From assembly GCA_014860565.1 (NCBI GenBank), contig JACZJN010000031.1, positions 1-64,000 of the forward strand: 64,000 nt of DNA. Direction: 5' to 3'. Source of the stretch: Bacteroidota bacterium. GTDB taxonomy: Bacteria; Bacteroidota; Ignavibacteria; SZUA-365. The notes under the pieces were generated by a model. That model searched no databases, was not told the DNA's origin, and was given only the letters and a program-made list of their open reading frames with translations. Below are positions 4,581-36,709 of the stretch, piece by piece. The first letter of the stretch is position 1. Each line of letters begins with the position of its first letter. A program made the position numbers and the translations under genes.

Positions 4581-4641
4581 GAGAACCCGTCGTTGTTGCC
4601 GATGATCGCATAGTTACGAAAAAATCGGAAAGGGAAGAAAT

Positions 4642-4668: not shown

Positions 4669-4778
4669 TCGCTGATGGGGTTGAGCGGAACTTTGTTCTT
4701 GTGGGAACGAAGGACTCGATATTGTCACCGAAATGACGTATCATTGCATATTCCGTCATATACGATTCTGGAGGAGAA

Positions 4779-5489
4779 ATGAAGAAAGCATTGGCAGTTG
4801 TTCTGCTTGTCATCCTGGCCGGCGGCATCGCGGTCGCTCAGGAAAGGGAGAAGGCCGGGGAGACGAAGGTCATTATCAAACAGACCCCGCCGGAGAAGGA
4901 GAATTACTACACCATCCGCGTCGGAGCCTGGTTTCCGAAGGACAAGGAAAAAGGATTCGACTTCCAGGGGAATCTGGTCGACGAGACCAATGGAAAAATT
5001 GATCAGTCGCAGGCACTCGGCGTGGATCTCCATTTTCGCAATGCCGCCTCGCACCCTCTGTATGTGGATCTCTCGGTGGGAGGCTGGTACACCAGCTACG
5101 AATTCACCGCCAACGATCTTCTGAATGAAACCGCCCTGATCCGGAAAAACAGCGCGTACGCGGTCATTGTCCCGGTGACGCTCGGACTTTCCATCGCTCC
5201 GCTCCCCGAAAATCCCATTCAGCCGTATGCCATGGCAGGCATCGGTGCCTACATCGGCATCACAGGGTATGATATCACGGAAGTGTCCGATCAGAATGCA
5301 AGCGCATCCGATACCTATGTCCGCTTCGGATACTACCTTGGCGCGGGTCTCGATTTCATGTTCGCCGAAACGTTCGGCGTCAGCGTCGGTGCCAAGTACC
5401 AGTTCCTCGAGTTCAAGGACCCGCTTTATACCGGACAAAAGAACTTCACCGGACTTCAGGCTTCCGTCGGTATTGCGATGAAAATGTAA
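4779..5489 (+). CDS. Outer membrane beta-barrel protein
   Basis: 236 residues. A strong ribosome-binding site (GGAGGAG) precedes the ATG. Residues 1-20 ('MKKALAVVLLVILAGGIAVA') form a Sec signal peptide, cleaved before Q21. The mature part alternates polar and aromatic residues in strand-length blocks ('YYLGAGLDFMFAETFGVSVG', 'GLQASVGIAMKM'), typical of 8-stranded OMP_b-brl-type barrels of about 20-25 kDa. The C-terminal residue is Met rather than the usual Phe, which is unusual for BAM recognition. A terminator follows at 5555, so it is probably monocistronic. Transport or adhesion roles cannot be distinguished. Confidence 0.75.
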   Translation: MKKALAVVLLVILAGGIAVAQEREKAGETKVIIKQTPPEKENYYTIRVGAWFPKDKEKGFDFQGNLVDETNGKIDQSQALGVDLHFRNAASHPLYVDLSVGGWYTSYEFTANDLLNETALIRKNSAYAVIVPVTLGLSIAPLPENPIQPYAMAGIGAYIGITGYDITEVSDQNASASDTYVRFGYYLGAGLDFMFAETFGVSVGAKYQFLEFKDPLYTGQKNFTGLQASVGIAMKM

Positions 5490-5554
5490 GCGCTATGCGC
5501 GGCGGGATCTGCTGCGGGAAACCGCACGCTGCCGCGAACGATTGTGACTTCCCC

Positions 5555-5583
5555 GCCGGAGATTCTTCTCCGGCTTTTTTTTT
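5555..5583 (+). terminator. Rho-independent terminator
   Basis: GCCGGAGA (5555-5562) and TCTCCGGC (5567-5574) form a perfect 8-bp stem with a TTCT loop, followed by nine T. It ends the transcript of the beta-barrel gene. Confidence 0.9.
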
Positions 5584-5703
5584 CTCGGGAAGGAACGTTC
5601 TCGCTTCACACGTGTCACTATACTTTGCATTTGGTTCTCGCCTTGGCGAGATTGGCAGCAGAATGCTCTATTCGACCACGTGCGACATTCACATGGAGGC
5701 AGG

Positions 5704-10012: not shown

Positions 10013-10090
10013 AAAATCCTTTCCCGGGGGGAACGATCCGCGCGCACATGTGTCTTGTTCGCGTATCGTTCACACAAAGGAGAGGTTGCC

Positions 10091-12490
10091 ATGAAAATCG
10101 GGGGTTATTGTCTTCTATTTACATTGCTGCTGTTGACGGGCGTTCGTGCCCAGAACAAAGCCGCCTACGACCTGCATCCCGACGAGATCGCTATTCAGCA
10201 GGAGACATCGGCGCAGCAGGAAGAAACGCAGCAGAACGTGTTCCGCAAAACAGCGGCCGGCCCGCTCGAACGCACGGCGTTGTACAATGCGATCAGCTCC
10301 GCCACGCTGCTGCGCGGGGGATATTTCACTTTCGGCACCACGGGCGGCGCGTCCGCCGAACGGCACGACGACAATTGCCAGATTACCTTCGGACATCCGT
10401 ACGCGCTGACGTCGTTTGCCATGCTGTACTGGGACGGCACATGGTACCGCGCGGATCAATTTTTCAATGAAAGCGAACGCGAGCTCTCCGGTTTCCGTGA
10501 TACGATACTGCTGGTGATGGAGCGTCCGGGACTGCTGCGCTTCGAATTGTCCATCGAACAGAATCCCGTCACCGGCGCGCTGCGCCTGGCGCTGCTGCTG
10601 CGCAACCTCGATGCCGCGCCGCATGAAGCGGCACTTGCGTTGCAGATGGATCCGGCTCTCGGGCGCTGGGGCGACGCGGCGCTCTTTACCGACAATACGG
10701 TGATTTTGCACGATACGACGTTCACAGCCGCGGCCATGCCGACCTCGCTGCTCCTGCAGGAGCGGGCGCATCGCGTGCATGGCGGACTCCGGGCCCAGAT
10801 CAATTTCCCCGGCGCCGCACCGGAAATGCTGCGCGTCGAGAACTGGCAGCCCGCTCTCGGTACCGTCTTCGATCCGCGCGAACCGCGTCCCCGGCAGCTC
10901 TTTGATATCGTGCTGCATCCATCGTGGAGCGTGCAGACGCTCGATCCCGCCGGGGAATGTGCGGCGGTGCTCGCGTTGGAACTCCCGCAGCCGGATTTCG
11001 CCACAATGACCTTCATGCGATGGGACATGCCGACCGCGCTCACCATCGACAAGGGCGTGCTGTTTCCGCGTGACTTCCCGGTGATGGTTGAAACCTACAA
11101 CAACGGTCCCAACGCCCTGAGCAATACCGGGCTGCAGATTCCCGTCGATGGGACCGTGCATGGCACAAAAGCCGCGTGGACGCTCAATGCTGCTGCTTTC
11201 GATTACGGATACAACTCTCTGTCTTTCCACAGCGAAGAATTGTACGAGGAGGCCGTCGTTCCGGTGACCATGTACTGCGTATCCGGTGGAGAAACTCTCG
11301 ACAGCCTCGTTCGCTATGTCTACATCCCGGCCGTGCCGATCAGCGATACGGGACTCGCGATGCAGATCGACACCGTCGACACAGGCGGACTTCCCGAAGT
11401 AGCGGTCTTTTTCAGCGTCATGGATGAAGCGACGCAGGTCCCTGTCACTGCCATGCGAGCGGAACACGTGCGTCTTTTTGAAAACGGCGAGCGTATCCGC
11501 GATTTCACGTTGGGCAAGGAAGGACGCAGTGAAGTGAATGCCGTCGATATTGTTTTCGTGCTCGACGTGACCGGCAGCATGTCCGACGAAATCGCGTCCG
11601 TCCGCGACAACATCCAGTCCTTCGCCGATGACCTGACCGGCATGGGCATCAGCTACCGGCTCGGTATGGTGACCTTCGGCGATGAAATCCGCAAGACCTA
11701 CGCATTCACCTCGGATGCGCAGCAGTTCCGGCAGTCAGTCGGGCAGCAGTCCGCTTCCGGCGGCGACGACCGGGCGGAGAATTCCCTCGACGCGCTGTTC
11801 GCCGCGGCGCAGTTCGAATTCCGTCCGGCGGCGCATCGCCTGATCATCTGGATCACCGATGCCGACTATCATGAAAGTGACAACGTGACCCAGCGCACCG
11901 TTCCTGAAGTGCTCGCGGCGCTGCTCGGCAACGCCATCAGAGTGCACGCCATCGGCAGCAAATTCGACAAGAGCGATTACGACCGCATCATCGGTCCCAC
12001 CGGCGGCATGTACTTCGACATCAACGGCAACTTCAAGGACATTCTCGAAGAAATCTCCCGCTTCGATGTGAGCACGACATACGCATTGCGCTACACGACT
12101 CCGCATCCGTCGGCTTCTTCGCGGCTGGTCGAACTCGAAGTGCATTATGCGGGGAAGGGCGGCACGGGAAGCTGGATGATACAGGCGCCTCCCGGGCTGA
12201 CGGCACAGGCCGAGGTGCTCTGCTATCCGAATCCGTTCAATCCCGCCGTGAACATCCATGTACGGAATGCGGCGGAAGGCCGGGGCTGGCTGTCGGTGGT
12301 CGATGCGAGCGGCAGGGAAGTGCAGCGCTTCACCGTGGAGGGCGGGCGCAGCGACTATCAGTTTGTGTGGGACGCGGATCAGCGCGCCGGATACGTGCCG
12401 GCATCGGGCGTGTATTTTATCCATCTGCAATTGGCGCAGCCGGGAGGGACCCTGCTGCGGAAGACCACCAGCGTCGTCTATTCAAAGTAA
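10091..12490 (+). CDS. T9SS-exported von Willebrand factor A domain protein
   Basis: 799 residues. The ATG at 10091 follows AGGAGAGG and starts the signal peptide 'MKIGGYCLLFTLLLLTGVRA'. Residues of about 30-480 are a beta-rich region of unknown type. A vWA domain follows at about 485-665, with an intact MIDAS start 'FVLDVTGSMSDEI' (D-x-T-G-S) that should bind a divalent metal and a protein ligand. The T9SS sorting domain starts at 'CYPNPFNPAVNIHV' (about 711) and runs to the end. The protein is expected on the cell surface or outside. It forms an operon with the VIT/vWA gene 15 bp downstream. An adhesion or complex-assembly role is inferred from the domain. Confidence 0.85.
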   Translation: MKIGGYCLLFTLLLLTGVRAQNKAAYDLHPDEIAIQQETSAQQEETQQNVFRKTAAGPLERTALYNAISSATLLRGGYFTFGTTGGASAERHDDNCQITFGHPYALTSFAMLYWDGTWYRADQFFNESERELSGFRDTILLVMERPGLLRFELSIEQNPVTGALRLALLLRNLDAAPHEAALALQMDPALGRWGDAALFTDNTVILHDTTFTAAAMPTSLLLQERAHRVHGGLRAQINFPGAAPEMLRVENWQPALGTVFDPREPRPRQLFDIVLHPSWSVQTLDPAGECAAVLALELPQPDFATMTFMRWDMPTALTIDKGVLFPRDFPVMVETYNNGPNALSNTGLQIPVDGTVHGTKAAWTLNAAAFDYGYNSLSFHSEELYEEAVVPVTMYCVSGGETLDSLVRYVYIPAVPISDTGLAMQIDTVDTGGLPEVAVFFSVMDEATQVPVTAMRAEHVRLFENGERIRDFTLGKEGRSEVNAVDIVFVLDVTGSMSDEIASVRDNIQSFADDLTGMGISYRLGMVTFGDEIRKTYAFTSDAQQFRQSVGQQSASGGDDRAENSLDALFAAAQFEFRPAAHRLIIWITDADYHESDNVTQRTVPEVLAALLGNAIRVHAIGSKFDKSDYDRIIGPTGGMYFDINGNFKDILEEISRFDVSTTYALRYTTPHPSASSRLVELEVHYAGKGGTGSWMIQAPPGLTAQAEVLCYPNPFNPAVNIHVRNAAEGRGWLSVVDASGREVQRFTVEGGRSDYQFVWDADQRAGYVPASGVYFIHLQLAQPGGTLLRKTTSVVYSK

Positions 12491-12505
12491 TCGGAGGGAA
12501 GGATC

Positions 12506-14539
12506 ATGCAGCGCTTCATACAACTCGCATTGCTCTCCGTGCTGCTTTCGGGCACGGCGCTGGCCGACGGACTGCTCGTTCCATCCACCACGGGATATCC
12601 GACCTCGCTCCTGCGCAATCGTATGACCAGTGTTTCGGTCAATATCTCCGGAATCGTCGCGGAGACGGTGGTCTACCAGGAATTCGTCAACGAATGGTCG
12701 CGCACGACCGACGCCGTGTGGGCGTTTCCCCTGCCGGCGGATGCGCGAGCGACGGCATTCTACTACTGGCGGCACGACACGCTGTTTCAGGCCGTGCTGC
12801 GCGTGCAGGAACAGGTGATCACGCCGGGTACCGGCGAAGGCGGCGTACCGGCGGTGATCAATAATTATATCGGGAAAAACGGTCTGAAAATCGAATTAAA
12901 GGGCATTGAGCCATGGACCGTGCAACGTGTGGAACTGCATTACATCTCGGAGTGCGATTACAGCTTCGGGGAAGGATCGTACCGCTACCCGCTCGCATCG
13001 GCGGGACTGGTGAACAGGGCGCTCGATCTGTTCGAGTTCCGGGTCCGCCTGCATGCCGGCGCGGCGATCACCGATTACACGCTGCTGCCTGAAGGAGAAG
13101 TGGGGGAGGAGCACGAAGCCCCGGAATCGCTTTCAATCGTACTGCAGAAATCGAAGGCCTATGTCAGTTCCGACGTTGAATTCCAGTGGAAGGCGGAAAG
13201 CAACGCCATGGCGGTGGATTTCTTCTCGAGCAAGCCCGACAGCGCGGATGGTTACTACGCGCTGCTGGTGCGTCCGCCGGATCTTCCGGCCGCGGGAGAC
13301 ATCATCCGTAAGCGCGCCGTGTTCATCATCGAGCAGTCGTCGCGCATGTACGGCGTGGCGATGGAACAGACGAAAACCGCGGTAACGCAGGCGCTGGCGT
13401 CGCTGGCGCCCGGTGACGAATTCAACGTCCTCGCCTTCGCATACAGCACGCGCATGGCATTTCCCGGCGTGGTCAGCGCGACGGCGGAGAACATCGCGGC
13501 CGCGCAGAATTTCGTCGCGGCCCTCACGGCATCCGGCGGAAGCCAGCTTGGTCCGGCGCTCGAAACCGCGTTCACGATGCTGCCTGCCGACAGCCTGCAC
13601 AACATGATCATCGGCGTTGCGGCGGGCTATTCGCCGGTTGATCCCGATGTCGTCACGCGGCAGAACCTCATCGGCGCGAACATCATCATGATCGGCCTCG
13701 GTAACGACGTCGACCGGTCGCGTCTGGAAATGATCGCCGAGCAGAATCGCGGTTTCGCACGATTCCTTCCGCTCAACACGGCCATGGGACCGGAGATGGC
13801 GCGCATTTTCCGTTCACTCGCCCAACCCCTCATGCGCGACGTGGGCATGGAGTATCCCGACGTCAACGTGTACGGCGTGCGTCCCGATCCTGTCCCGCCC
13901 CTGTTCGCCGGCATGCACACGCTGACCGCGGGCCGTTACCGGAAACCCGGGGTTTCACCCATGTCTCTCTTCGGCGAGGGAGCCGGCGGCTTCCGCGCCT
14001 ACAATTTCCAGCTCGATTTCGCGGGCGGACGCGGGGCGACCAGCATCGCCGAGAAGCTCTGGGCCAAGCTGATGATCGACGGCATGGAGCGTGAGATCGA
14101 CGTGCACGGCGTGCGACCGTCGCTGAAGGACAGCCTCATCGCCGTCAGTCTCGCCTCCGGCATCCGCTGCCGTTACACCGCGTACATCGCCGACTACATC
14201 AACGTGGTGACCGGCATCGAAACGCCGGAAACGAAACCGGTGCCCGGCGAGAGCACCCGGATCGTGGACAATTATCCGAATCCGTTCAATCCCACGACCA
14301 GCATACGCATTTACATCCACGGTGACCGGATCGCGGGCAGCGGACTGCAGCTGCTGATTTACGACATGCTCGGGCGGCTGGTGCGCATCATCGACCTGTC
14401 GCATCTCCCCGCTGGAACGCACGTCATCGTCTTCGACGGTCGCGACATGAACGGTGCAGCGCTCCCAAGCGGCACCTACACGCTTACGCTCGCAGGTGCG
14501 GGTGTGTACAGCACGCGAAATATCGTGCTGATGAAATAG
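12506..14539 (+). CDS. T9SS-exported VIT + vWA-like domain protein
   Basis: 677 residues with GGAGGGAAGG before the ATG. The signal peptide is 'MQRFIQLALLSVLLSGTALA'. Residues of about 22-160 resemble the VIT (vault/inter-alpha-trypsin) domain: 'VVYQEFVNEWSRTTDAVWAF', 'FPLPADARATAFYYW'. A vWA fold follows at about 275-450. Its MIDAS is degenerate: the expected D-x-S-x-S is replaced by 'IIEQSSRM', so metal-dependent binding may be lost. The T9SS domain begins 'NYPNPFNPTTSIRIY' at about 588. VIT and vWA are commonly paired in secreted proteins of this group. The intact MIDAS of the upstream partner contrasts with the decayed one here, suggesting division of labour. Confidence 0.85.
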   Translation: MQRFIQLALLSVLLSGTALADGLLVPSTTGYPTSLLRNRMTSVSVNISGIVAETVVYQEFVNEWSRTTDAVWAFPLPADARATAFYYWRHDTLFQAVLRVQEQVITPGTGEGGVPAVINNYIGKNGLKIELKGIEPWTVQRVELHYISECDYSFGEGSYRYPLASAGLVNRALDLFEFRVRLHAGAAITDYTLLPEGEVGEEHEAPESLSIVLQKSKAYVSSDVEFQWKAESNAMAVDFFSSKPDSADGYYALLVRPPDLPAAGDIIRKRAVFIIEQSSRMYGVAMEQTKTAVTQALASLAPGDEFNVLAFAYSTRMAFPGVVSATAENIAAAQNFVAALTASGGSQLGPALETAFTMLPADSLHNMIIGVAAGYSPVDPDVVTRQNLIGANIIMIGLGNDVDRSRLEMIAEQNRGFARFLPLNTAMGPEMARIFRSLAQPLMRDVGMEYPDVNVYGVRPDPVPPLFAGMHTLTAGRYRKPGVSPMSLFGEGAGGFRAYNFQLDFAGGRGATSIAEKLWAKLMIDGMEREIDVHGVRPSLKDSLIAVSLASGIRCRYTAYIADYINVVTGIETPETKPVPGESTRIVDNYPNPFNPTTSIRIYIHGDRIAGSGLQLLIYDMLGRLVRIIDLSHLPAGTHVIVFDGRDMNGAALPSGTYTLTLAGAGVYSTRNIVLMK

Positions 14540-17339: not shown

Positions 17340-18224
17340 ATGCGCTCAACCGCTTCGAACATATTCGTTGCCGCACTCGCATGCCTGGCTCTCGCAAGCT
17401 GTGACTACCAGTCGAGCACGCGCCCGGAGCCATGGCGCCCGCAGTACTCATCGCTGGAGGCGGCCGTCCGCGACAGCCTGGGAGCGTACGAGCTGTACCT
17501 GTCCGACATCGGAGATTCCCTTTCTCCGACGGTAGGCAAGCTGAAGAATCTGAAAACCCTCCGCATCGGCAACAGTCACATCCGCTTTCTGCCGGAAGAA
17601 TTCCGTCAACTTGTTTCGCTTGAGACGCTCATCCTCGACAAGACGGACTGTGCGGATATTCCCCCGCAGATATACAGCCTGACATCCCTGAGGGAATTCC
17701 ATTTCGCCGATCATCGGCCGGAGGACATTCCTGACGGACTTGCGGCGCTTGATCTCGAGGTCCTCGATTTCACGCACAACTACCTCAACTCCATTCCTGA
17801 ATGGCTGCAGAAAAAAAATACATTGCGATCGCTCGATCTGGAACGGAATGGCTTCAGCACGTTTTGTGTGGAGGAGGGGGCGTTCCCGAACCTGACGGAA
17901 CTCGTCTTGTCACAAAACATCCTCATCGCGTTTCACACCGCACCAGGCGCATTCGCGAAGCTCACGACGCTGTTCCTGGGCTGGAATAAGCTGACGGCAA
18001 TACCTGAGGCGGTTGACAGTATCGCCGTGGAGTGGCTGGATCTGCAGGCTGATCCCATCCGAACGATCCCGCGCTGGCTGCAGCAGAAACGCGGATTGGA
18101 GATACTTTCGTTCGGCCAGAATGGACTCGCTTCCTTCCCCTCCGATACCGGTACATACAAGGATCTGGTGGCTCTCTATATCCGCACCCGTCTCCCGGAT
18201 ACGGACATTTCATTCTCATACTAA
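17340..18224 (+). CDS. Leucine-rich-repeat lipoprotein
   Basis: 294 residues with AGGAG before the ATG. The signal 'IFVAALACLALASC' ends in a lipobox (L-A-S-C21), so the mature protein is lipid-anchored. From about residue 65 there are roughly 8 leucine-rich repeats of 22-24 residues ('LKNLKTLRIGNSHIRFLPE', 'LVSLETLILDKTDCADIPP', 'LRSLDLERNGFSTF'), forming a curved binding scaffold. Such lipoproteins are typical cell-surface recognition modules in this group. It precedes the giant T9SS protein gene by about 115 bp in the same direction and may belong to the same transcription unit. The ligand is unknown. Confidence 0.85.
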   Translation: MRSTASNIFVAALACLALASCDYQSSTRPEPWRPQYSSLEAAVRDSLGAYELYLSDIGDSLSPTVGKLKNLKTLRIGNSHIRFLPEEFRQLVSLETLILDKTDCADIPPQIYSLTSLREFHFADHRPEDIPDGLAALDLEVLDFTHNYLNSIPEWLQKKNTLRSLDLERNGFSTFCVEEGAFPNLTELVLSQNILIAFHTAPGAFAKLTTLFLGWNKLTAIPEAVDSIAVEWLDLQADPIRTIPRWLQQKRGLEILSFGQNGLASFPSDTGTYKDLVALYIRTRLPDTDISFSY

Positions 18225-18340: not shown

Positions 18341-21300
18341 ATGTATCGAGGATTCTCCCGACAAGCGTTGACGTATATGGCGGTTCTTCTTGGGCTGGGG
18401 ATGCTGCTGGCGCCATTTATGGGAGCAGTCACCGCAGGTGCCGGGAGATCTGCCGAACAGACACCTCGCTCTCGCGCCGTTGCGCCGGCCAGTAACCTGG
18501 ACAGGCGCATCGAGCGGTCGCTCTCGTCGGATAGTGTTCGATTTCAAGAAAACCGGGGACAGTTCGTCGATACCCACGGTCAACCCTGCAGCGAGATTCA
18601 GTACACCGCGAAACTCCCCGGTGCCTCTGTCTACCTCCGGCCGGATGGTATCAGCACGGTGCTCGTTCAGAACGGAAAGGATGATCCGGTATCCGAATTG
18701 TCAGTGAGTACCCGGTCCGGCACCCGCTATTGTCGTGTTGATATGACGCTGCTCGGATGCAATGCTGCGTCTCGCCTGTCACCGAGAGAACAGGCGGATG
18801 GTGTTGTGAACTTCTATTCAACGCGTTATCCCGAGGGACTCCGCGGCGTACGCGAGTTTCATCGGGTGGTATACGAGGAGATCTACCCGCATATCGATTT
18901 GGAGGTTTTCGCGGCGGAAGGAAGGCTCAAATACAACTTCATTGTCCATCCGGGGGGAAATCCACAGCAGATCCGAATGCTGTACGATGGTGCGGACGAC
19001 ATTACCGTCGCCGCTGATGGCTCCCTGGTGATCACCACACCACTGGGGAACATCGAGGAGAACGCACCGCAATCCTGGACGGCTGAAACGAAGCGGTCCG
19101 TGCGCGCGGCCTTCAGGATGCATGATCGGTGCGTCAGCTTCGAGATCGGACAGTACGACAGTACCCAAACCCTGATCATCGATCCCTGGGCGACATATTA
19201 TGGCGGATATGACCATGATTTCGGTCACTCGATCGCTGTCGATGCATCGGGAAACGTGTTCGCCACCGGAGCGGCAGCCAGTCCGACACTGATCGCGTCT
19301 CCGGGGGCGTATCGGGAGTCGTACTCGGGATCGCGCAACGATGGCTTTATCGTCAAATTCAATTCCGCCGGGATGCGGGTGTGGGCGACATATTTCGAAA
19401 GCAACATTGAGAGCATGCCCAGCGCAGGGTACTCAGGATGGCCTGTAACGAGCATCGTCGTCCATCCGGATCAAGGGATCTGCGTCGGTTCAACCTGTCA
19501 AGGCAGCACAGCGGGTGTTGATGATGGCGATATCGCTGTCCGGAAGTTCACAACCGACGGGCTGCTGAGCTGGGAGCGATTCATCCGCGGTCCCAGTTAT
19601 GAGCGGTGTTCACGAATCACAACCGATGCGCAGGGAAACGTCATCGTCGTCGGCTGGTCCATGAGTACGACCGGCATTGCGACCAGCGGTGCGTTTCAGG
19701 CGCAGAATAACGGCTATGTTGATGGCGTCGTGGCGAAATTCACTTCGACCGGCACACTTCTCTGGTCAACGTATCTCGGAGGACTTCTTACGGATTTGTC
19801 CTGGGGAGTCGTCGCGGATGTTCAGGGGAATATCTACGTTGCCGGGGCGACAATCAGCCCGGATGGGATTTCCACGCCTGGCGCATTCCAGACAACGCTC
19901 CAGCCGGGACCTGCAAATCATAACTGGGATGCGTTCCTTGTGAAATTCAATAGTAACGGTGTGCGGCTGTGGGGGACGTATTTCGGTGCAGCGAACGACG
20001 AGGATTGGATAAATCTCGCGATCGATGACCAGGCAAATCTGTACCTGGTCGGCTGGTCACGATCCCCGAACGGTTTAGCCACACCCGGCGCGTATATGAC
20101 GACGAACCACCTCGGTTCCTTTCTTGCGAAATTCACTTCGGATGGGCGACGAATCTGGTCCACATTCATCAGCGATGAAAGTCCGAATATGGTGAGATTG
20201 CAGGCGATCGCTGTTGCGCAGAGCGGACGCATCTTTCTGGGAGGCGAGGTTCAGGGACAGTTCTCCCAGGCAGGATCTCCTGGTACGCATCAGCCGGAAA
20301 AGAAAAGTTATCAGGACGGCTTCCTGACAGTGTTCACTCCTGATGGTGGCTTCGATTGGGCGACGTACTTCGGCGGGGAGTACAACGATGCTATCACTGG
20401 CCTCTGCCTCGATGCGAACGAAGACCTCTATTTCGTCGGGTGGACGATGAGCGCCCATCACATCGCGACGAAAGATGCGTATCAGCCGCATCTTCTCGGG
20501 ACGTACGATGCCTTCATCACGGTCATGCGTGGTGGTCTGATCTGCGACAGTTCCGGCATGCTCCTGCATCCGGTCGATACCACGGTGTGCGAGGGACAGG
20601 GACTCAGCTTCTCGGCAGCAGCGTTCGGCCCGATGCTCTCGTTCCAATGGCAGGTCGACACCGGTTCGGGCTTCGTCGATGTCGTCGCGAATTCGGTGTA
20701 TTATGGGGAAGCGACGCCGTTGCTCGCCATTCGAGCCGCAAGATGGACGGATTCAGGAAACAGGTATCGTTGCGTGATTACCGACCGTTGTTTTCGGGAG
20801 CTGCGCAGCGATTCTGTCACGCTGAGCGTTCTGCCTTCCCCCGAAGTGTATATCACCGCGCTTGGTCCGACCAGGCTTTGTAAAGGGGGACTTGTACCGC
20901 TCGTCGCGACAGCGGATCCCTCACTCCGATATATCTGGAGACGCGACGGAATCGATATCCCCGGTGCGGACGGACCGCTGTTCAACGCAACCGAAGCTGG
21001 CTCGTATAATGTGGTGGTCGTAAATGCGCTGGACTGTCAGGATACCTCGAACGCGATTCTCGTGGAAATCAATCCCGGTCCAGGCGCAATCCTGCAACCG
21101 GGTGATTCGGTCGCGCTCTGTCCCGGCGACCTGATTCGATTGAATGTCATCACCACGTCGGCGATACAGTTTCGCTGGCTGTGCGACGGAATCGATATGA
21201 ATGCACCGAACCGTCCGTATCTCGATGTTCGCCGGGAAGGACTCTACAGGGTGATTGCCACGGATGTTGACGGATGCGCTGATACGTCCGATGTGACACT

Positions 21301-24300
21301 GGTGAGGATGCTTCAAGGTCCGGGAGCGTCTCTGTTGGCGTCGGGATCTCTTGCATTCTGCCGAGGGGACAGTGTCGTCCTACGTGCGAACACCGGTAAC
21401 GGACTGCAGTATCGATGGATGAGAAATGGGATTATTCTCGACTCCGTCCGGACGAGCAGACTCGTGGTCAGGGCATCCGGTTCGTACCGCGTGCTCGTCA
21501 CCAATGATGAAGGATGTACGGATACTTCCACAGCGGTTTCGATCTCGGCAGGACCCGACGCGGGGATTACGCTCAGTGGTCCCACCGAACTCTGCGAAGG
21601 TGATACGCTCTGGCTCGTCACGGCTACAGGCCGAGGGATTACCTATCACTGGACGAAGGACGATGTCGACCTGCCCGGTGTGACCACGGGCATTCTCCCC
21701 GCAACATCTTCCGGTGACTACCGTGTCATTGTCATCGATTCCCTGGGCTGTATCGACACTTCTCGTATTGTCACGGTCACGATGCTGCCCGGTCCGAGCG
21801 CACATCTGCTCGCCACCGGACCGACGGAGTTCTGTCCCGGGGACAGCGTCGTACTGCGGGCGGACACCGGCTCGGGTTTCCTCTATCAATGGTTGCTCGA
21901 CGGACGGCGGATCCTCGGCGCAGTCACGGACCGCTACGTCGCACGAACCGTTGGTCGGTATCAAGTGATCATTTTCGATTCGCTGGGGTGTCGGGACTCA
22001 TCAGAAGTCTTGTTCGTGAACCCATGGCCACCTCCCCTGGCAGCCGCGGGGGCGGATACGATGGTCTGCCATGGTGAAAGTGTGCGGTTGGGAAATCGGC
22101 TGTCGGGAAGTCCGCCTCTTCGCGAATGTACCTGGTCGCCGACGACGGGACTCGATAGCGCAAATGTCGCACAGCCATTGGCCTCCCCACAAGGGACGAC
22201 GCTCTACATCCTGAGAGCGACAGACGAGCATGGGTGTACAGTGACGGATTCCGTGCGCGTCGTCGTGCACGATTCACCGGCGCCGGTGATCATTGCCGGA
22301 GGGCCGCTGACCTTCTGCCAGGGAGATTCGGTCGAATTGTTCACGGCACCGGGATTCGAATCCTACCTCTGGCAACCGGGTGGTGAACGCGGCAATCGCA
22401 TCCGGGTGGGCGGCAGTGGGAGCTACAGCGTCGAGGTTGAGAATGCGGCGGGTTGCCGGGGGATTTCTCCGCCGATGGAGGTGACGGTGCACTCCCTTCC
22501 TGTTGTTTCGATTGATGGTCCGCTCAGTGTCTGTCGCAACGCACGAGGCATTTATTCGGTACCCGGGGAGCCGGGCGTCTCTTACAGATGGTCCGTGGTT
22601 TCAGGTCTTATCCTCTCTCGGGCAGACAGCGCAGCGGTACAGGTGCGGTGGGATACGAATGGACTGGGCGTTGTCTCCCTGACCGCACAACATCTCACTA
22701 CAGGGTGCATTGCGACACGGGCGGATACGATCAGTGTATCAGAATCATTGCAGCCGCGTATCACACCCAATCCAGCCCTCCTTTGCGCCGGTGACAGCAT
22801 CGAGCTCGATGCGGGAAGCGGCTATTCTACATACTCATGGTCCACCGGCGAGACGGAACAGAAAATCATTGTTCGGGCTGGCGGATCGTATGCCGTGCAT
22901 GTCAGCGACGAAGGCGGCTGTGAAGGAACGGATACCGTGGTCGTGACAGTACTTCCCCCGCTGCCTGTTTCGATCGAGCTGTCCGGATCGCGGCGCTTCT
23001 GTCAGGGAGACAGTGTTGTGCTGCGGACGCAGCTGCCGTATCTCCATTACCAGTGGCTGCATGATGGCATCGAAACGGGTGACACGGCACGGTCCCTGAC
23101 CGTGAGGACCAGCGGAACGTACGTCGTCCGCGTTCGTGATGCGAATGGTTGCGCGGCTGAATCTCCTCCGGAACCTCTCGAATCCAGCACCATCGGTGAG
23201 GTCCGTTTGACGGGACCGAATACCGGGTGTGTATCCGATACGGCGGAATACGTGCTGTCTCCGATTGGCCTGTACACATACCACTGGACTCTCACGGGCG
23301 GGAGCATCGTCAGCGGGATAGGGACATCAGCTGTGCGCGTGATCTGGACCACCCCCGGCAGCAATCGCGTGCACGTTGAGGTTCTTGATACCACGAGTGG
23401 ATGCCGGGGAAACGCGGCATTGCAGGTCGCTGTCGGGGCGGGAATCACTCCAGGCATACGGGCGCTCGATGATACGGTCTTCTGCGATGGAGGGAATGTC
23501 GTGCTGGAAGCGGACCCCGGATATTGGCAATATTATTGGACGACTGGGGAACAGACCCGCCAGATACTCGTGACCCGCACGGGAAGTTACCGGGTCCGGG
23601 CGTGGGATTCGCTTTGCAGTGGATGGTCGCGTCCGATGTACATTACGGTTCTCCCCGCACCGGCGCCGTCGATACTTCCTCCGGGACCGCTCTGGATCTG
23701 TGCGGGGGATTCCTTGCGGCTCGAAGCTTCGGACGGGTATGTCGCATACCGCTGGACCCGGGACGGAGCGGCTCTGACGGGAAAGGACCGCTTCCTGACC
23801 GTACGGGACAGCGGAAACTATCGGGTCGAAGTCATGGATGCACAGGGCTGTGAAGGGAGCGCGCCACCAGTGCGGGTTTCAATCCATCCGTTGACACTTG
23901 CGGAGATCAGCGTCGATGGAGTGGTTCTGACAGCATCGGATGGCATCGCCTGGCAGTGGTGGCTGGATGATTCGTTACTCACGGGAGCGGTCACTCGCAG
24001 TGTCACGGTTCCTCGCAGTGGTCGCTACACCGTATATGTCACAGATACGAACGGTTGTATGGCGGAGTCGGAACCGGTGGATGTAACGCTCGTCGGTGCC
24101 TCATGCACTCTGGCATTGCCGGATTTGCTTGTCCGGCCCGGCGACCGCTTCAGTATTCCCATCCTGTTGGCGGAGGAGGAAGGGCTGAGGCGAGCAGGAG
24201 CAGACAGCGTGCGCTTCACGTTGCTTTTCGACCGGACAGTTCTCCTCCCCGAATCGATGCCTTTTGTCGACAGTATACGGTTCCGGAAAGTGTCTGTCCA

Positions 24301-24757
24301 GGCGACGCGGGTGGAGGCAGGACAGGTGCTCGCGCGCGTCGATGTTCTGGCCCTCTGGGGCGCGACGAACGAGACACCGCTCACGCTTTCCGAGGTCCGA
24401 TGGACCGGAACCGCGGTGGACGTTACCCAGCGTGCAGGACGTGTCCGTTTGGAACTCTGTCAGGAAGGGGGTACGCGGTTGTATCAGGCGGGGGGGAGGA
24501 CACAGTTCCTCGGCTCGCGCCCGAATCCGTTCAATGCGTCGACCATCATCGAATACGAGGTAGGGGAAGCAGGGGTGATGGAATTGTCCGTGCACGACGT
24601 GCTCGGGCGGCGTGTCGCGGTGCTCGCGCACGGGGAAATGCAGCCGGGTGTCTACCAAGCCATTTTCACGGCCGATGCCCTGCCGTCAGGCTCGTATGTT
24701 TCCATTCTTCGCAGTGAAACCATAACGGTCTTCCACTGGCTGGTGCTTGTGAAATGA
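18341..24757 (+). CDS. Giant T9SS surface protein: SBBP repeats, about 14 Ig/PKD-like modules, cohesin-like domain
   Basis: 2138 residues from the ATG at 18341, with GGAGG upstream; the earlier ATG at 18230 has no site. A signal anchor lies at about residues 10-32. Next come an N-terminal domain ('RFQENRGQFVDTHG') typical of SBBP proteins and SBBP beta-propeller repeats at about 285-725 ('WATYYGGYDHDFGHSIAVDA', 'YVAGATISPDG'). From about 730 to 1925 there are roughly 14 Ig/PKD-like modules, most carrying a C-x-G-D-S-V-x-L signature ('FCRGDSVVLRA', 'FCPGDSVVLRA', 'FCQGDSVVLRT'). A cohesin-like region ('LPDLLVRPGDRFSIPILL') and a T9SS domain ('SRPNPFNASTIIEYEV') finish it. It is probably a filamentous adhesin. 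Its stop overlaps the start of the next gene, an OmpA-family protein. Confidence 0.88.
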   Translation: MYRGFSRQALTYMAVLLGLGMLLAPFMGAVTAGAGRSAEQTPRSRAVAPASNLDRRIERSLSSDSVRFQENRGQFVDTHGQPCSEIQYTAKLPGASVYLRPDGISTVLVQNGKDDPVSELSVSTRSGTRYCRVDMTLLGCNAASRLSPREQADGVVNFYSTRYPEGLRGVREFHRVVYEEIYPHIDLEVFAAEGRLKYNFIVHPGGNPQQIRMLYDGADDITVAADGSLVITTPLGNIEENAPQSWTAETKRSVRAAFRMHDRCVSFEIGQYDSTQTLIIDPWATYYGGYDHDFGHSIAVDASGNVFATGAAASPTLIASPGAYRESYSGSRNDGFIVKFNSAGMRVWATYFESNIESMPSAGYSGWPVTSIVVHPDQGICVGSTCQGSTAGVDDGDIAVRKFTTDGLLSWERFIRGPSYERCSRITTDAQGNVIVVGWSMSTTGIATSGAFQAQNNGYVDGVVAKFTSTGTLLWSTYLGGLLTDLSWGVVADVQGNIYVAGATISPDGISTPGAFQTTLQPGPANHNWDAFLVKFNSNGVRLWGTYFGAANDEDWINLAIDDQANLYLVGWSRSPNGLATPGAYMTTNHLGSFLAKFTSDGRRIWSTFISDESPNMVRLQAIAVAQSGRIFLGGEVQGQFSQAGSPGTHQPEKKSYQDGFLTVFTPDGGFDWATYFGGEYNDAITGLCLDANEDLYFVGWTMSAHHIATKDAYQPHLLGTYDAFITVMRGGLICDSSGMLLHPVDTTVCEGQGLSFSAAAFGPMLSFQWQVDTGSGFVDVVANSVYYGEATPLLAIRAARWTDSGNRYRCVITDRCFRELRSDSVTLSVLPSPEVYITALGPTRLCKGGLVPLVATADPSLRYIWRRDGIDIPGADGPLFNATEAGSYNVVVVNALDCQDTSNAILVEINPGPGAILQPGDSVALCPGDLIRLNVITTSAIQFRWLCDGIDMNAPNRPYLDVRREGLYRVIATDVDGCADTSDVTLVRMLQGPGASLLASGSLAFCRGDSVVLRANTGNGLQYRWMRNGIILDSVRTSRLVVRASGSYRVLVTNDEGCTDTSTAVSISAGPDAGITLSGPTELCEGDTLWLVTATGRGITYHWTKDDVDLPGVTTGILPATSSGDYRVIVIDSLGCIDTSRIVTVTMLPGPSAHLLATGPTEFCPGDSVVLRADTGSGFLYQWLLDGRRILGAVTDRYVARTVGRYQVIIFDSLGCRDSSEVLFVNPWPPPLAAAGADTMVCHGESVRLGNRLSGSPPLRECTWSPTTGLDSANVAQPLASPQGTTLYILRATDEHGCTVTDSVRVVVHDSPAPVIIAGGPLTFCQGDSVELFTAPGFESYLWQPGGERGNRIRVGGSGSYSVEVENAAGCRGISPPMEVTVHSLPVVSIDGPLSVCRNARGIYSVPGEPGVSYRWSVVSGLILSRADSAAVQVRWDTNGLGVVSLTAQHLTTGCIATRADTISVSESLQPRITPNPALLCAGDSIELDAGSGYSTYSWSTGETEQKIIVRAGGSYAVHVSDEGGCEGTDTVVVTVLPPLPVSIELSGSRRFCQGDSVVLRTQLPYLHYQWLHDGIETGDTARSLTVRTSGTYVVRVRDANGCAAESPPEPLESSTIGEVRLTGPNTGCVSDTAEYVLSPIGLYTYHWTLTGGSIVSGIGTSAVRVIWTTPGSNRVHVEVLDTTSGCRGNAALQVAVGAGITPGIRALDDTVFCDGGNVVLEADPGYWQYYWTTGEQTRQILVTRTGSYRVRAWDSLCSGWSRPMYITVLPAPAPSILPPGPLWICAGDSLRLEASDGYVAYRWTRDGAALTGKDRFLTVRDSGNYRVEVMDAQGCEGSAPPVRVSIHPLTLAEISVDGVVLTASDGIAWQWWLDDSLLTGAVTRSVTVPRSGRYTVYVTDTNGCMAESEPVDVTLVGASCTLALPDLLVRPGDRFSIPILLAEEEGLRRAGADSVRFTLLFDRTVLLPESMPFVDSIRFRKVSVQATRVEAGQVLARVDVLALWGATNETPLTLSEVRWTGTAVDVTQRAGRVRLELCQEGGTRLYQAGGRTQFLGSRPNPFNASTIIEYEVGEAGVMELSVHDVLGRRVAVLAHGEMQPGVYQAIFTADALPSGSYVSILRSETITVFHWLVLVK

Positions 24758-26799
24758 ATCCTGCGCGAAATCAGAGACGGGATCATGGTGTGAGAAAACC
24801 GGATGTACGCAATTCGCTACGCAGGGTGTCCGCGATCGTCCCAGTGCTGTTGTTTCTGGCCTTCAGTCAATCCGCGGGTCAGACTCTGTACCGCTCCTCG
24901 GTTGGGATATTCGGGGCGTACATCAGAAATTTTCACGATGCGGATTTCCGCGCGCTTCCCGGTGTTCCGAACTGCTGTCCGAAATTCGAATCGGGTGTTG
25001 GCGATGGGGGCGCTCTCGGTCTACTTTACGAGACTCCGATCTCGGATCGCATCGTGTTCTCCATGCGTGCGGCGTACATGACCCAAGGTGCACGACTGAC
25101 TGCTGACGAGGTACTCCCTGTCGCTGTCGGTGGTGTGTCGAGCCCGGCGGTCATCGCACACTCGATCGACGTCACATTGCCTTCCCTCGGAATTGAACCG
25201 GGGGTGTATTATCCTCTCGGTGACCGGCTTGCTGTCCACGGTGGCATACGCCTTGCATTGCAAATCGCACCGGAGTATCGCCAACAGGAGACGCTGATCC
25301 GTCCGGAAAGCGGGACGTTCGAGAATGGGCGCCGCATTCGGAACGAGTACGCGGGAGCTTTGCCTGAATACGCACCGCTGTCGCTCGCGTTGGTTGCCGG
25401 GGTGAGTTACCGCGTCCCTCTCGATGACCGCGGACGGTTGTCCGCAGCCCCCGAGTTCACATATATTTATGGACTGACACCAATTATATCGTCCTATATC
25501 TGGACGGCTCAATCCTTCCGCGCAGGTATTGTGCTCCGCTACCACCTCGGAGCGGACGGAGAGGAGTTGCCGGCGCAGCCGCCGGTTCCGATGCCACCTT
25601 CGAAACCGCCATCGACGATTGCCGCTCGCATCGCGGTAACGGGTGTTGTCGACGGAATCGAGGTGCCGGTACATGAAATCGTGGTGGAGGAATATCGTTC
25701 GACGAATATGTATCCACTGCTGCCGTATGTGTTTTTTCCCGAACACGCGGCGGAGATCCCGACACGCTATACCCGTGTCGGGAGTCAGGGCGGATTCCGT
25801 GTTGAATCTCTTCGACCGACCTCCACACTAGATGTATATCACCATCTGCTCAATATTATTGGCGAGCGACTGCAGCAGTATCCCGAAGCGACGATCACAC
25901 TCACGGGCTGCAATGCGAACATTGGCGTGGAGAAAGGGGATCTCGCGCTCTCGGGAGCGAGAGCCAATGCCGTTGCGCGCTATCTCACCGGGCAATGGGG
26001 CATCGATTCCACACGCATCGATATCCGTGCCCGGAATCTGCCCGGAATTCCTTCGAACGTGGGCGACCCGGATGGTGTCGTGGAGAACAGACGTGTGGAG
26101 ATCGTCGCATCCGATCCGCGGATCCTCCAGCCGGTCATCCTGCATTCGACGGAAACGCAGTATATCCCTGCGGAATTACATTTGCGCCCCCGCATCACTG
26201 CCGGCGATGGGATACGGAACTGGGCTGTCAATGCAGGATTGCGTGCGCATGTCCCTGCTCGATACTCAGGTGCAGACGCGCCACCGGCCGTGCTGACCTG
26301 GGATGCCGCCGCGGCCCTGCGCGGTGCAAGTGACTCCGTTTCCAGGATTGAAATTGGTTGTGCCGCGGAAGACCTGCTCGGCAGGAAGGTTGAGGCCGAC
26401 GAACAGTCGTTACCTGTACGGTACCGGTTACTTTCCGACCAGCAAAGAGACCGCACGGTTTCGGGCAGGGAAATCCAGCGCTACAGCCTCATTCTCTTTG
26501 ATTTCGATCGGGCGGATCTCGGCACTATGAACAACACCCTGATCCCGCTCATTCGCAGCGAGATCCAGCACGCTTCAACCATCCGCATCACCGGCTACAC
26601 GGATCGAATCGGTGAAAGTGAATACAATACGGGGATCTCGCTCGCCCGGGCACGCAACACTGCGACCGCACTGGGAACGCAAACAGCGATGTTGAAAGGA
26701 CTCGGCGAGAGCGAACCTCTCTTCGATAATGATCTTCCCGAAGGTCGCTTCTATTGCCGGACCGTCATCATCGAAGCCGAGACTCAAGAGATAAAATAA
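24754..26799 (+). CDS. OmpA-family protein: N-terminal beta-barrel plus two OmpA domains
   Basis: 681 residues. The ATG at 24754 overlaps the TGA of the giant protein gene (ATGA), so translation is likely coupled. A signal peptide lies at about residues 25-43 ('VLLFLAFSQSAGQ'). Residues of about 45-270 look like a beta-barrel ('SVGIFGAYIRNF', 'YVFF' strands) with paired Cys in 'NCCPKF'. A proline-rich linker ('PPVPMPPSKPPS') leads to two OmpA-like domains: 'GARANAVARYL' to 'NRRVEI', and 'IRITGYTDRIGES' to 'LPEGRFYCRTV'. It is a paralogue of the gene at 2-1162. It should span the outer membrane and bind peptidoglycan, and may anchor or help export its giant neighbour, which is inference. Confidence 0.87.
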   Translation: MNPARNQRRDHGVRKPDVRNSLRRVSAIVPVLLFLAFSQSAGQTLYRSSVGIFGAYIRNFHDADFRALPGVPNCCPKFESGVGDGGALGLLYETPISDRIVFSMRAAYMTQGARLTADEVLPVAVGGVSSPAVIAHSIDVTLPSLGIEPGVYYPLGDRLAVHGGIRLALQIAPEYRQQETLIRPESGTFENGRRIRNEYAGALPEYAPLSLALVAGVSYRVPLDDRGRLSAAPEFTYIYGLTPIISSYIWTAQSFRAGIVLRYHLGADGEELPAQPPVPMPPSKPPSTIAARIAVTGVVDGIEVPVHEIVVEEYRSTNMYPLLPYVFFPEHAAEIPTRYTRVGSQGGFRVESLRPTSTLDVYHHLLNIIGERLQQYPEATITLTGCNANIGVEKGDLALSGARANAVARYLTGQWGIDSTRIDIRARNLPGIPSNVGDPDGVVENRRVEIVASDPRILQPVILHSTETQYIPAELHLRPRITAGDGIRNWAVNAGLRAHVPARYSGADAPPAVLTWDAAAALRGASDSVSRIEIGCAAEDLLGRKVEADEQSLPVRYRLLSDQQRDRTVSGREIQRYSLILFDFDRADLGTMNNTLIPLIRSEIQHASTIRITGYTDRIGESEYNTGISLARARNTATALGTQTAMLKGLGESEPLFDNDLPEGRFYCRTVIIEAETQEIK

Positions 26800-30928: not shown

Positions 30929-33682
30929 CTATTGCATGATCACGATGCAGCGTTGCAGCGTTGTGTTGTTCGATGTAATACGGCATATGTACACCCCGGA
31001 CGGTGCGGGATTCCCAAGACGGTCATTCCCATCCCATGTCGCTGTGTATCTGCCGGCATCGAAGGACTCATGAAACAGCTCACGCACGTTTTCACCCATG
31101 CTGTTATATATGGCCATCAGCACAGGAGCCGCCTCTGGCAGAGTAAAGGTTATTGTCGTTGTCCCGCTGCAGGGATTCGGATAGTTCGTCATAGTCGGTG
31201 TGGGAGGAACGGCTTCGCCTCCGTGTCCTGTTACTCTCTGCTTCATGTTGGATCCGAGTATCTGCCATGTCCCGAATTCCTCCCAAGTGCTTGAGGCGGT
31301 TTTCTGCACGTAGTCTGCTGAGGATCCGGGGTATGTTTGCAGCGAACCCGAACCGTTGCTGAGAGGACCACGGAAATAGTAGTAATTCTCGGTGCTTCCG
31401 TTAATGGTCACCTTATGAATACGGCTGTATGCCTTGTTCCCCTGATTGGATACAGGAGCGCTGTCGAACCAGAATCTGATGGGGAAATCCGCGGCATTCG
31501 CATTCGCGTTTTTACGGATAAACACCTTGCAGTACAGGTAATCATTCGCCGCGAATGTCACGCCCGTGAGGCGGGGGAGTGGGATACTGTATATCTTCGA
31601 AAGAGAATTCTGCGCGTTGCCGACAACCTGCTGTTTGTAAATCTCACCTGACAAAATGAGACCTGAAAGATTCATGATGTTTTTGTAAAATGAAACCTTA
31701 ATATCAATTTTACACCCATTGTTCGAATTTGTGGGTGATCCGAGCGACACTTCCACGGGACCGAGATCAGAGGTTATCACTTTCGCAGATAAGGTGGCCT
31801 TGAATGATTCGGCTATTCCGCAAGGGTTTGAGAACAGAGCCTGATACTGGTTCCCGTTCATCACTGTGGCGACATTCTCCAGTGTGAGCGTAGGAGAAGT
31901 AGCTCCACTGATGGCAGAGAACTCGCTCCCGCCGTCGGTCGATACCATCCACTGAACGGTGATGGGTGATGAACCCGATGCGGCAGCGCTGAACACCGCT
32001 GTATTACCCGCAAGAATGACGACGTCCATAGGGGACTCGGTGATCTCAAGCGGTGTGTTCACGGTCAATGTTGCGGCACTGGAAGTCAATGACTGGCTCG
32101 CCGCGGTGACAATGACATCATACGATCCTTCGTTTTCGGCAGTGACAGCGCTGATCAAGTAGTCCGCCTCATTCGCTCCGGAAATCGACACACCGTTTTT
32201 CCTCCATTGATAGGATAGCTCGCTGCCGGTCGCAGTCACAGAGAATGTCGCGGTCTCGCCAGGACATTTCGTGAGGCTGGACGGGGATGTGGTAATCGCC
32301 AGGGTTTGACAACTCAGCGGCGTGACGGTTCCGGCTGTGACTGTACTTGACTGCACGGGCGACTGGAAGGAATACACTCCCGGGAGCATTTCCATACCGG
32401 ATGTGAAGCTCCTCCACTCTCCGGCGAGGAACTGGGAGATGCAGGCTCCCGATACCTGGCCAGTCTGAAATGTCAGTTCCTGAATACCTGTGCCGCTCGT
32501 CACGGAAACCGGGTATTTCTCCTCGGAGGTGTAGTTGTAGTTCGCGCGGAACTTGTAAAGTGAGGAGCCGAACAGAGGAATTTCCATGTATCCGGAAGAA
32601 TTGAAACTCCCGAGGGTGATCCAGGTACTTCCTTCCTGTTCGAGCCAACCCGCTTCGTCCGTGATCCCGCTGCCGTTGTGATCCTTCAGCCAGATTCGAA
32701 GAATATCTGCCTGCCAAGTGTAGTTTGAAGCGGTCAGCTGCGATGCATTCTGCTCTGCGGTCCCCTGGTTGAGCGACATCCTGATCTTGCTGAAGCCAGT
32801 TGGGACATCTGTGAAGAGTAAACCTTCGGCATCTGTCTGACCGGAGAGCGGCGCTCCCCAGCTCCCATCGATCTCAGCTGCGGCGATACCGCCCGCCACG
32901 CCAACGCCGTTTTCATCTAGGAGTCGCAGTAGCGTCTTGTTCATTTCGCAGCCACTGACGACGACAGAAACTGGTGATGACCATATGTTTGCGTATTTGA
33001 AATAGAACGCATAGGTCCCAGGAAGCATATCGAGAAACGGTTCTGTGAAATACCACCAGCCGCCTGTATTCGATTTTATTTCGCCAGCGTACGAGAAGCT
33101 GACTTTCGTTGTTAGAAAATCGATGCTATTGGTACCAGAAAGAATGGAAATAGAGCTCCGCTCCTCGCTGCCATGATTGAAGCTCATCCGCAGTTTGACG
33201 CTTCCGGGAAACGCATAAAAACTCACGGTACCGGTCCCGGCAGTATTACCGTGTGTATACCAGTACCCCCCGCCTTGTGCAACAATACCTCCGGGCGTGC
33301 TGGTGATCAATGCGTCGCAGGTCTTGAGATTGACATTCACTTTTGCCGCTTGAAAGACGGTGTTGCCCGTAACATCCTGCTCACGGGACGTCTGGTACAA
33401 AGTGACCGTAATTTTACTGTCCCAGTTGCTGCAACTAGAAGGGATAGTAACGATCCACTGCCCGTTTGCGTCGGTCTGGAAAGCTGTCTCAGGCCCCCAA
33501 CTTCCGCCACAGCGGTATTTCCATTTCAGATTCCGTGTGTCAGATGTAAAATCGGAGGGATAATTTGGGATGGGGTTCTCGTTTTCGTCCACCAGTGTGA
33601 GTGTGTATTGCGTCTGCCCCTGGAGATGGGCGCCCGTACTGATCAGCAGACAGAAAACCAATAATGCCAATGACTTTTTCAT
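30929..33682 (-). CDS. T9SS surface protein with G-G-x-W-Y repeats and Ig-like domains
   Basis: 917 residues with signal peptide 'MKKSLALLVFCLLISTGAHL'. The N-terminal half (about 25-470) consists of about five beta-rich modules with recurring motifs 'YTLTLVDENENPIPNYP', 'RNLKWKYRCGGSWGP', 'GGGYWYTHGNTAGTG' and 'SEERSSISILSGTNS'. Two Ig-like domains follow at about 475-650 ('TKCPGETATFSVTATGSELS', 'VSISGANEADYLIS'). A unique region is next, then a T9SS domain from 'NYPNPCSGTTTITFTL' to 'RCIVIMQ'. It is a close paralogue of the neighbour at 33827, which suggests tandem duplication with domain swapping. I do not recognise the G-G-x-W-Y module as a named family. It is expected on the surface or secreted. 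Confidence 0.8.
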   Translation of the reverse strand: MKKSLALLVFCLLISTGAHLQGQTQYTLTLVDENENPIPNYPSDFTSDTRNLKWKYRCGGSWGPETAFQTDANGQWIVTIPSSCSNWDSKITVTLYQTSREQDVTGNTVFQAAKVNVNLKTCDALITSTPGGIVAQGGGYWYTHGNTAGTGTVSFYAFPGSVKLRMSFNHGSEERSSISILSGTNSIDFLTTKVSFSYAGEIKSNTGGWWYFTEPFLDMLPGTYAFYFKYANIWSSPVSVVVSGCEMNKTLLRLLDENGVGVAGGIAAAEIDGSWGAPLSGQTDAEGLLFTDVPTGFSKIRMSLNQGTAEQNASQLTASNYTWQADILRIWLKDHNGSGITDEAGWLEQEGSTWITLGSFNSSGYMEIPLFGSSLYKFRANYNYTSEEKYPVSVTSGTGIQELTFQTGQVSGACISQFLAGEWRSFTSGMEMLPGVYSFQSPVQSSTVTAGTVTPLSCQTLAITTSPSSLTKCPGETATFSVTATGSELSYQWRKNGVSISGANEADYLISAVTAENEGSYDVIVTAASQSLTSSAATLTVNTPLEITESPMDVVILAGNTAVFSAAASGSSPITVQWMVSTDGGSEFSAISGATSPTLTLENVATVMNGNQYQALFSNPCGIAESFKATLSAKVITSDLGPVEVSLGSPTNSNNGCKIDIKVSFYKNIMNLSGLILSGEIYKQQVVGNAQNSLSKIYSIPLPRLTGVTFAANDYLYCKVFIRKNANANAADFPIRFWFDSAPVSNQGNKAYSRIHKVTINGSTENYYYFRGPLSNGSGSLQTYPGSSADYVQKTASSTWEEFGTWQILGSNMKQRVTGHGGEAVPPTPTMTNYPNPCSGTTTITFTLPEAAPVLMAIYNSMGENVRELFHESFDAGRYTATWDGNDRLGNPAPSGVYICRITSNNTTLQRCIVIMQ

Positions 33683-36127: not shown

Positions 36128-36709
36128 GGATTCCTTCCTCATACTAAAGTTTGATTTCCCGAAAATCGAACGTCTGATCCTTCGAGCGAGCAGAAAAATT
36201 AATGCTAGAATTCACAGGCACTTCGCGCCCCCCACGTGACACACGCCGCACCGAGGCTGAGTTACGGTCTCGACTTGATTTGGCTGGGTTGAGCACGAAT
36301 TGAGTCTGGTTACGCCAGCTTCGCTGAATGGCATACGAGGTTATACGGATGTCCCACCATTCGAGCACTGTTTACGCACCGTCGGGTCCGTGTCCCGACG
36401 TTTCAACACGCAATGATCATCCTTGTTCTGCCACGACCTCCTGTTATATGAGATTTGGAAACCTAGACGTTGGGAACTGGTTTTGTACCTCGATGCACAT
36501 CTCACTGCGATGCCTCCCAATGGGTAACGCAGTGATGAATGCAACCCAGAGTGCAAAGCCTCGATTTAGGACAATGAGGAGTAAAATCCTTAGTATGTCG
36601 CAACATTAAGAAAAACAGGGCAGAAGGTCAATAGCTGCAGGATGCAGAACGAATAATATTTTTTGAATCCAAGCCGCTGCATGACAAGTGCGCTGAACTG
36701 CCGATAATC

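Follow-up and report, generated by a model that had tools for sequence, protein, structure and literature searches.

Giant surface protein gene and its overlapping partner

The stretch of DNA analysed here, which we call the window, comprises positions 1 to 64,000 of contig JACZJN010000031.1 from a Bacteroidota bacterium of the class Ignavibacteria, 64,000 nucleotides in all. Within it lie two overlapping genes, one for a giant protein with the architecture of a type IX secretion system (T9SS) adhesin and one for a protein that joins a β-barrel to two OmpA domains. An earlier reading of this DNA, made from its letters and open frames (the original prediction), had noted that the TGA stop of the giant (24755–24757) overlaps the ATG of its neighbour, and the four bases ATGA at the junction bear this out. 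Open reading frames were called mechanically; an alternative TTG start at 18230 would give a giant of 2175 residues. The features of the two genes, in window coordinates, are:

18341–24757, + strand: gene for the giant surface protein, 2138 residues (open frame from ATG to TGA)
18341–18437, + strand: probable signal peptide, end approximate (by eye: a charged start, then the hydrophobic run MYRGFSRQALTYMAVLLGLGMLLAPFMGAVTAGA)
18542–19189, + strand: DUF7948 domain (PF25778, 1e-54; the genome search gave the same coordinates)
19187–20540, + strand: SBBP β-propeller region, end approximate (PF06739, 3.4e-14; LipL53-type SBBP model, 3e-26)
20543–24076, + strand: about 14 Ig-like (Ig_7/PKD) modules (PF19081, 6e-19; regularly spaced C-x-G starts)
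24104–24487, + strand: cohesin-like domain, the part that coupled giants have in common (profile matches; Pfam Cohesin in relatives; PDB cohesins)
24458–24460, + strand: conserved Cys, residue 2040, in the C-x-E-G-G-x-R-L linker between cohesin and tail (linker Cys counts)
24491–24754, + strand: T9SS type A-like C-terminal sorting domain (TIGR04183, 21.1 bits, just under the cut-off of 23; seven strands in the model)
24754–24757, + strand: ATGA stop/start overlap of the two genes (sequence)
24754–26799, + strand: gene for the barrel and double-OmpA protein, 681 residues (open frame; OmpA twice in Pfam)
24898–25545, + strand: eight-stranded β-barrel, residues 49–264 (AlphaFold2 secondary structure; Foldseek matches to OmpA/OmpX/Ail barrels)
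24973–24978, + strand: Cys74-Cys75 in predicted extracellular barrel loop 1, LPGxPNCCPxFE (alignment of relatives)
25546–25617, + strand: Pro-rich linker from barrel to periplasm (sequence; low confidence in the model)
25741–26109, + strand: OmpA domain 1, which retains the Arg of the peptidoglycan site but has lost the Asp (alignment counts)
26134–26427, + strand: β-sandwich between the OmpA domains (model strands 461–558)
26467–26787, + strand: OmpA domain 2, with Asp617 and Arg632 for peptidoglycan binding (Foldseek 3td3/3td5)

Most of the domain assignments in the original prediction stood. It had not noted the DUF7948 domain, the leucine-rich repeat gene immediately upstream or some 16 additional OmpA homologues in the genome. 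Pfam recovered the SBBP blades, and the count of about 14 Ig modules is a fair one: C-x-G module starts fall at residues 750, 847, 927, 1007, 1085, 1165, 1243, 1326, 1482, 1554, 1715 and 1787, with variant starts near residues 1398 and 1630 and a spacing of about 78 residues. Of the signature attributed to these modules, C-x-G-D-S-V-x-L, the full C-x-G-D/E-S/T form occurs in about eight of them. The cohesin-like domain holds at the level of the family. Pfam Cohesin (PF00963) matches 9 of 17 relatives (best 1.9e-7), a PDB sequence search with the cohesin-like profile returned essentially only cellulosome-type cohesin chains, and the AlphaFold model compares with known cohesins at TM 0.5–0.62; the giant's own copy, searched alone, gave no Pfam Cohesin match. 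An AlphaFold2 model of the cohesin and tail piece (pLDDT 94) shows the cohesin fold and, after it, a tail domain with the expected seven strands (residues 138–219 of the piece). By sequence the giant's T9SS tail stays below the TIGR04183 cut-off, but the tails of coupled relatives score above that of PF18962.

The barrel-plus-double-OmpA architecture of the partner was likewise confirmed, with two Pfam OmpA stretches and an eight-stranded barrel in the model; the strand count is our own reading of the model's secondary structure. In OmpA domain 2 the Asp and Arg of the diaminopimelate site are invariant, being retained in 72 of 72 relatives that cover this domain. The protein has 17 homologues in its own genome and matches in 49 of the 61 genomes searched (own genome counted), and the named records among its relatives are labelled Ignavibacteria, Bacteroidetes or Candidatus Kapabacteria.

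Conserved pairing and a constant cohesin-like domain

To follow the pair beyond the window we used 75 loci, which are the best matches to the window's OmpA protein, come from the class and are not a random sample. At 57 of them a giant with the cohesin-like domain adjoins the barrel-OmpA gene on the same strand (upstream in 47, downstream in 13, on both sides in 3). The original prediction had proposed checking whether the two genes stay adjacent and overlapping in related genomes. Adjacency is conserved, so the pair survives this check, but exact overlap is not the rule: among the 47 pairs with an upstream giant the exact ATGA recurs in 7, with the ATG within 25 bases in 24, and we reject exact-overlap translational coupling as a defining trait. 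Starting from the other partner, a scan of six genomes found a barrel beginning 198–537 bases downstream of 23 of 59 cohesin-like domains, and three closed genomes hold 11 cohesin-then-barrel tandems against 0.08 expected. These counts bear on the simplest alternative, in which an ordinary type A T9SS protein happens to sit beside an unrelated OmpA gene. The window's own genome has at least 150 T9SS-tail matches alongside its OmpA homologues, so random neighbours can arise; the conservation of the locus and the closed-genome tandems nevertheless refute chance neighbourhood, which we regard as exceedingly improbable.

Pair counts in draft genomes are underestimates, because contigs break within barrel-OmpA genes. 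The window's own genome consists of 223 contigs with breaks at several barrel-OmpA or giant genes, and five of them (C92, C80, C191, C170 and C70) break inside barrel-OmpA genes, perhaps owing to repeats in the Pro-rich linker. At three loci (L086, L090 and L073) a single barrel-OmpA gene is preceded by two cohesin-and-tail giants in tandem. A split version, with a separate barrel gene and OmpA gene in a row, occurs at L158, L159 and L160 and on own-genome contigs C171 and C16; at L158–L160 the order is a gene for a T9SS-tailed protein, the barrel gene, then the OmpA gene. The split genes are possibly a precursor or a relic of the fused form, and those at L158–L160 support seeing the fused protein as a merged PorP-like and PorE-like unit by function, not by descent.

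The bodies of the coupled giants differ completely. Some combine DUF7948, SBBP and Ig_7 as in the window, some carry SprB repeats, some WD40 and HYDIN-type Ig domains, and some HYDIN-type Ig domains only. The second DUF7948 pair of the own genome (L022) has a body with SprB repeats and PKD, and at L116, L123 and L155 barrel-coupled giants have WD40 propellers of eukaryotic appearance, after which come HYDIN/ASH-type Ig domains. The bodies are thus interchangeable, and what stays the same is the cohesin-like domain immediately in front of the T9SS tail. Among T9SS-tailed proteins in the loci, 41 of 44 that adjoin a barrel have the cohesin-like domain, compared with 12 of 49 elsewhere (odds ratio 42, p 4e-12); genome-wide, the window's own genome has 17 cohesin-like domains against its far larger set of T9SS tails. 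Five giants (L022, L085, L093, L094 and L097) have no T9SS tail and stop 1–2 residues past the cohesin domain, with the barrel-OmpA match 75–167 bases further on, a space too small for a tail domain; the first of these lies on own-genome contig C80 at 877–6933. Such coupled giants make it less likely that the T9SS tail alone is recognised. The own genome also holds cohesin-and-tail proteins without a neighbouring barrel (L147, L148, L149, L150, L152 and L153), which may borrow the partner of another pair, as orphan Type B substrates do.

Co-variation of barrel and giant, and the proposed display pair

We compared tree distances between partners over 41 pairs, and over a thinned set of 32 pairs without close relatives. 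Barrel distances followed those of the cohesin-like domain (r 0.53) and of the tail (r 0.59), the cohesin–tail value inside the giant being 0.62–0.65, whereas the OmpA domains, which share a polypeptide with the barrel and have a similar number of sites, reached 0.18–0.19 against cohesin and tail. Swapping partners among paralogues inside one genome broke the barrel correlations (p ≤ 0.0006 on trees, ≤ 0.0032 on raw distances). In the thinned set the barrel–cohesin (0.38) and barrel–tail (0.56) values were both significant, whereas the OmpA values (0.05–0.11) were not. Raw sequence distances gave a smaller contrast, with 0.59–0.62 for the barrel and, for the OmpA domains, 0.29–0.46 against cohesin and 0.31–0.39 against tail. 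Since plain linkage would give barrel and OmpA domains equal values, this statistical evidence points to the barrel as the part that would contact the giant.

We consider it probable that the two genes form a dedicated surface-display pair that fastens the giant to the cell wall across the outer membrane. The giant would be exported via the T9SS, for which its genome encodes the SprA translocon (SprA_N, 1.7e-51) and the PorU sortase (T9SS_sortase, 987 bits), and its long propeller and Ig body would be the working end outside the cell. The C-terminal cohesin-like domain and tail would dock on the extracellular face of the partner's eight-stranded barrel, with the OmpA domains of the same protein, chiefly domain 2, gripping the peptidoglycan below. 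The original prediction had suggested a dedicated anchor or export partner, and the conserved neighbourhood, the specific pairing and the barrel–tail co-variation speak for one. The sequences directly show the architecture, the conserved pairing, a cohesin domain that persists while bodies are swapped, the co-variation specific to the barrel and the peptidoglycan-type residues; that the two proteins bind, that the giant sits at the surface and that the pair serves for anchoring is our inference.

Several observations weigh against this interpretation. PorU is present, so the giant may undergo the usual type A processing, in which the tail would be cut off and lost from the contact, and may be attached to lipopolysaccharide (LPS). 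At 18 of the 75 loci no cohesin giant was detected, in several cases because the contig ends, and several cohesin-and-tail giants have no adjoining barrel (for example on C136, C124 and C181 of G000), so the cohesin-like domain is not exclusive to pairs. Joint duplication may also cause part of the co-variation of neighbours, although the weak signal of the OmpA domains speaks against it as the sole cause.

The same data bear on two further explanations. There may be no physical pair at all, the adhesin being co-transcribed with an envelope-stabilising OmpA protein that offsets the load of exporting or bearing giants. In keeping with such a role, OmpA proteins generally link outer membrane and wall, the coupled proteins also have their giant size in common, and orphan cohesin giants exist; general wall support would, however, predict neither the co-variation of the barrel, rather than of the OmpA domains, with the giant's C-terminus nor the enrichment of cohesin in coupled giants, and we think this explanation unlikely. 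Alternatively, the barrel-OmpA protein could be a dedicated export carrier that picks up the giant from the SprA translocon, in the manner of SprF with SprB, with holding secondary or transient. Secretion of Type B substrates depends on a neighbouring barrel (PMC12618676, PMC9143113), the tail-less giants with a barrel partner would require some export route, and the barrel–tail co-variation is the strongest (r 0.59–0.62 across trees and raw distances). Yet the known PorV, PorP and SprF carriers are 14-stranded FadL-type barrels (PMC9143113), unlike the eight-stranded barrel here, which has no PorP_SprF match, and type A-like tails are usually served by PorV. Export as the main role seems to us quite unlikely.

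Returning to the display pair, conserved cysteines are found in both proteins. The linker Cys is present in 53 of 53 cohesin-and-tail proteins compared with 18 of 40 other tailed proteins, and among barrel relatives C74 is found in 70 of 74 and C75 in 56 of 74, every sequence having at least one loop-1 Cys, mostly within PNCC. A strict giant–barrel disulfide was rejected because tail-less giants lack the linker Cys and yet their barrels keep Cys74/75, and because orphan giants also carry the linker Cys, so that the two sites do not covary. Oligomerisation and a vicinal disulfide are alternatives for the loop-1 pair. SprF and PorG are known to bond to GldK via twin cysteines (PMC12635249).

A more speculative extension, which we think rather unlikely, is that the class fixes its T9SS giants by a third route, based on cohesin. 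Here the cohesin-like domain, instead of the tail, would be the address label, read by a family of small eight-stranded barrels fused to wall-binding domains that would replace the undetected Type B/SprF pairs. For most pairs a disulfide joining the linker Cys to the loop-1 pair could lock the contact, the linker Cys lying near the giant's new C-terminus after PorU removes the tail; tail-less giants, in which this Cys is absent, would rely on the cohesin contact alone. In current models of the T9SS, type A substrates share the general carrier PorV, dedicated partner barrels being confined to Type B substrates. If the proposed display pair is real, class-wide type A-like giants with gene-linked, wall-anchored barrels and a cohesin-like module would be a second solution for fixing huge adhesins on the cell surface.

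The surroundings in the window contain related genes. A gene for a leucine-rich repeat (LRR) lipoprotein-like product (17340–18224) ends 117 bases before the giant on the same strand and could belong to the giant/OmpA unit. The contig begins within a second double-OmpA protein (2–1162), 41% identical to the 681-residue protein, whose barrel and neighbour are lost beyond the contig end. Two adjoining T9SS-tailed proteins (30929–33682 and 33827–36142) share 'TLVDENGNPIPNYPADY...'-type repeats and look like a diverged tandem duplication, and two T9SS-tailed VWA-type proteins stand in succession at 10055–14539, the second with a VIT domain.

Comparison with known T9SS, OmpA and cohesin systems

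The Type B tail (TIGR04131), for which numerous genomes elsewhere in the phylum give strong matches, had no match in the own genome or in G020, G030, G039, G048 and G057 of the same class. PF11751 (PorP_SprF) matched 0 of 15 barrel-family members at E ≤ 1, with one match elsewhere in the own genome; with no profile match and eight strands instead of the 14 of FadL-type barrels, we reject membership of the PorP/SprF family. Against a full-length PorE model (TPR, propeller and OmpA) the OmpA protein scored 23 bits with a cut-off of 600, over the OmpA part only. Pfam found no dockerin in the OmpA protein and the whole genome has one, so cohesin–dockerin pairing of the giant with its neighbour was also rejected. 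In the open-licence literature on cohesin or on Kapabacteria with T9SS we found nothing on such giant/barrel-OmpA pairs. The original prediction, which did not know them as a described pair, is right to that extent; a functional analogue has been described, namely a Type B substrate with PorP/SprF and sometimes PorE (PMC9143113, PMC12618676).

Other likenesses concern single parts of the pair. E. coli OmpA has the same sequence of eight-stranded barrel, linker and peptidoglycan-binding domain, whereas the protein here has two OmpA domains flanking a β-sandwich and belongs to a large set of paralogues, the majority of which are linked to a surface giant. In cellulosomes, too, a docking module with the cohesin fold ends a scaffold-like protein, but the partner here has no dockerin match. 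PorG is also an eight-stranded T9SS barrel with a conserved cysteine pair (PMC12635249); its cysteines bond periplasmic GldK, whereas Cys74/75 lie in a predicted extracellular loop.

In Porphyromonas gingivalis, PG1035, PorP and PorE likewise form a chain of contacts that runs from a surface protein through an outer-membrane barrel to a peptidoglycan-binding OmpA-type domain (PMC9143113). Here the barrel and the wall-binding domains are fused, there are two OmpA domains, and PorE's TPR/propeller part is absent. In Flavobacterium johnsoniae, SprB–SprF and other Type B pairs likewise set a very long, repetitive T9SS adhesin beside the gene for a dedicated outer-membrane barrel, which is thought to recognise the substrate C-terminus, with several paralogous pairs per genome (PMC9143113, PMC12618676, PMC12635249). 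Five F. johnsoniae operons combine a PorE homologue, a Type B substrate and an SprF-like carrier (PMC12618676), and it has been proposed that Type B substrates are tied to the wall through PorP-like barrels and PorE (PMC9143113; PMC12618676). By analogy, the giant/barrel-OmpA pair would work like this Type B substrate/PorP-SprF/PorE set of the Bacteroidota, the closest known system, without being a member of it, because its tail, which follows a cohesin-like domain, is type A-like, its barrel is eight-stranded with no PorP_SprF match, and barrel and wall anchor are one protein.

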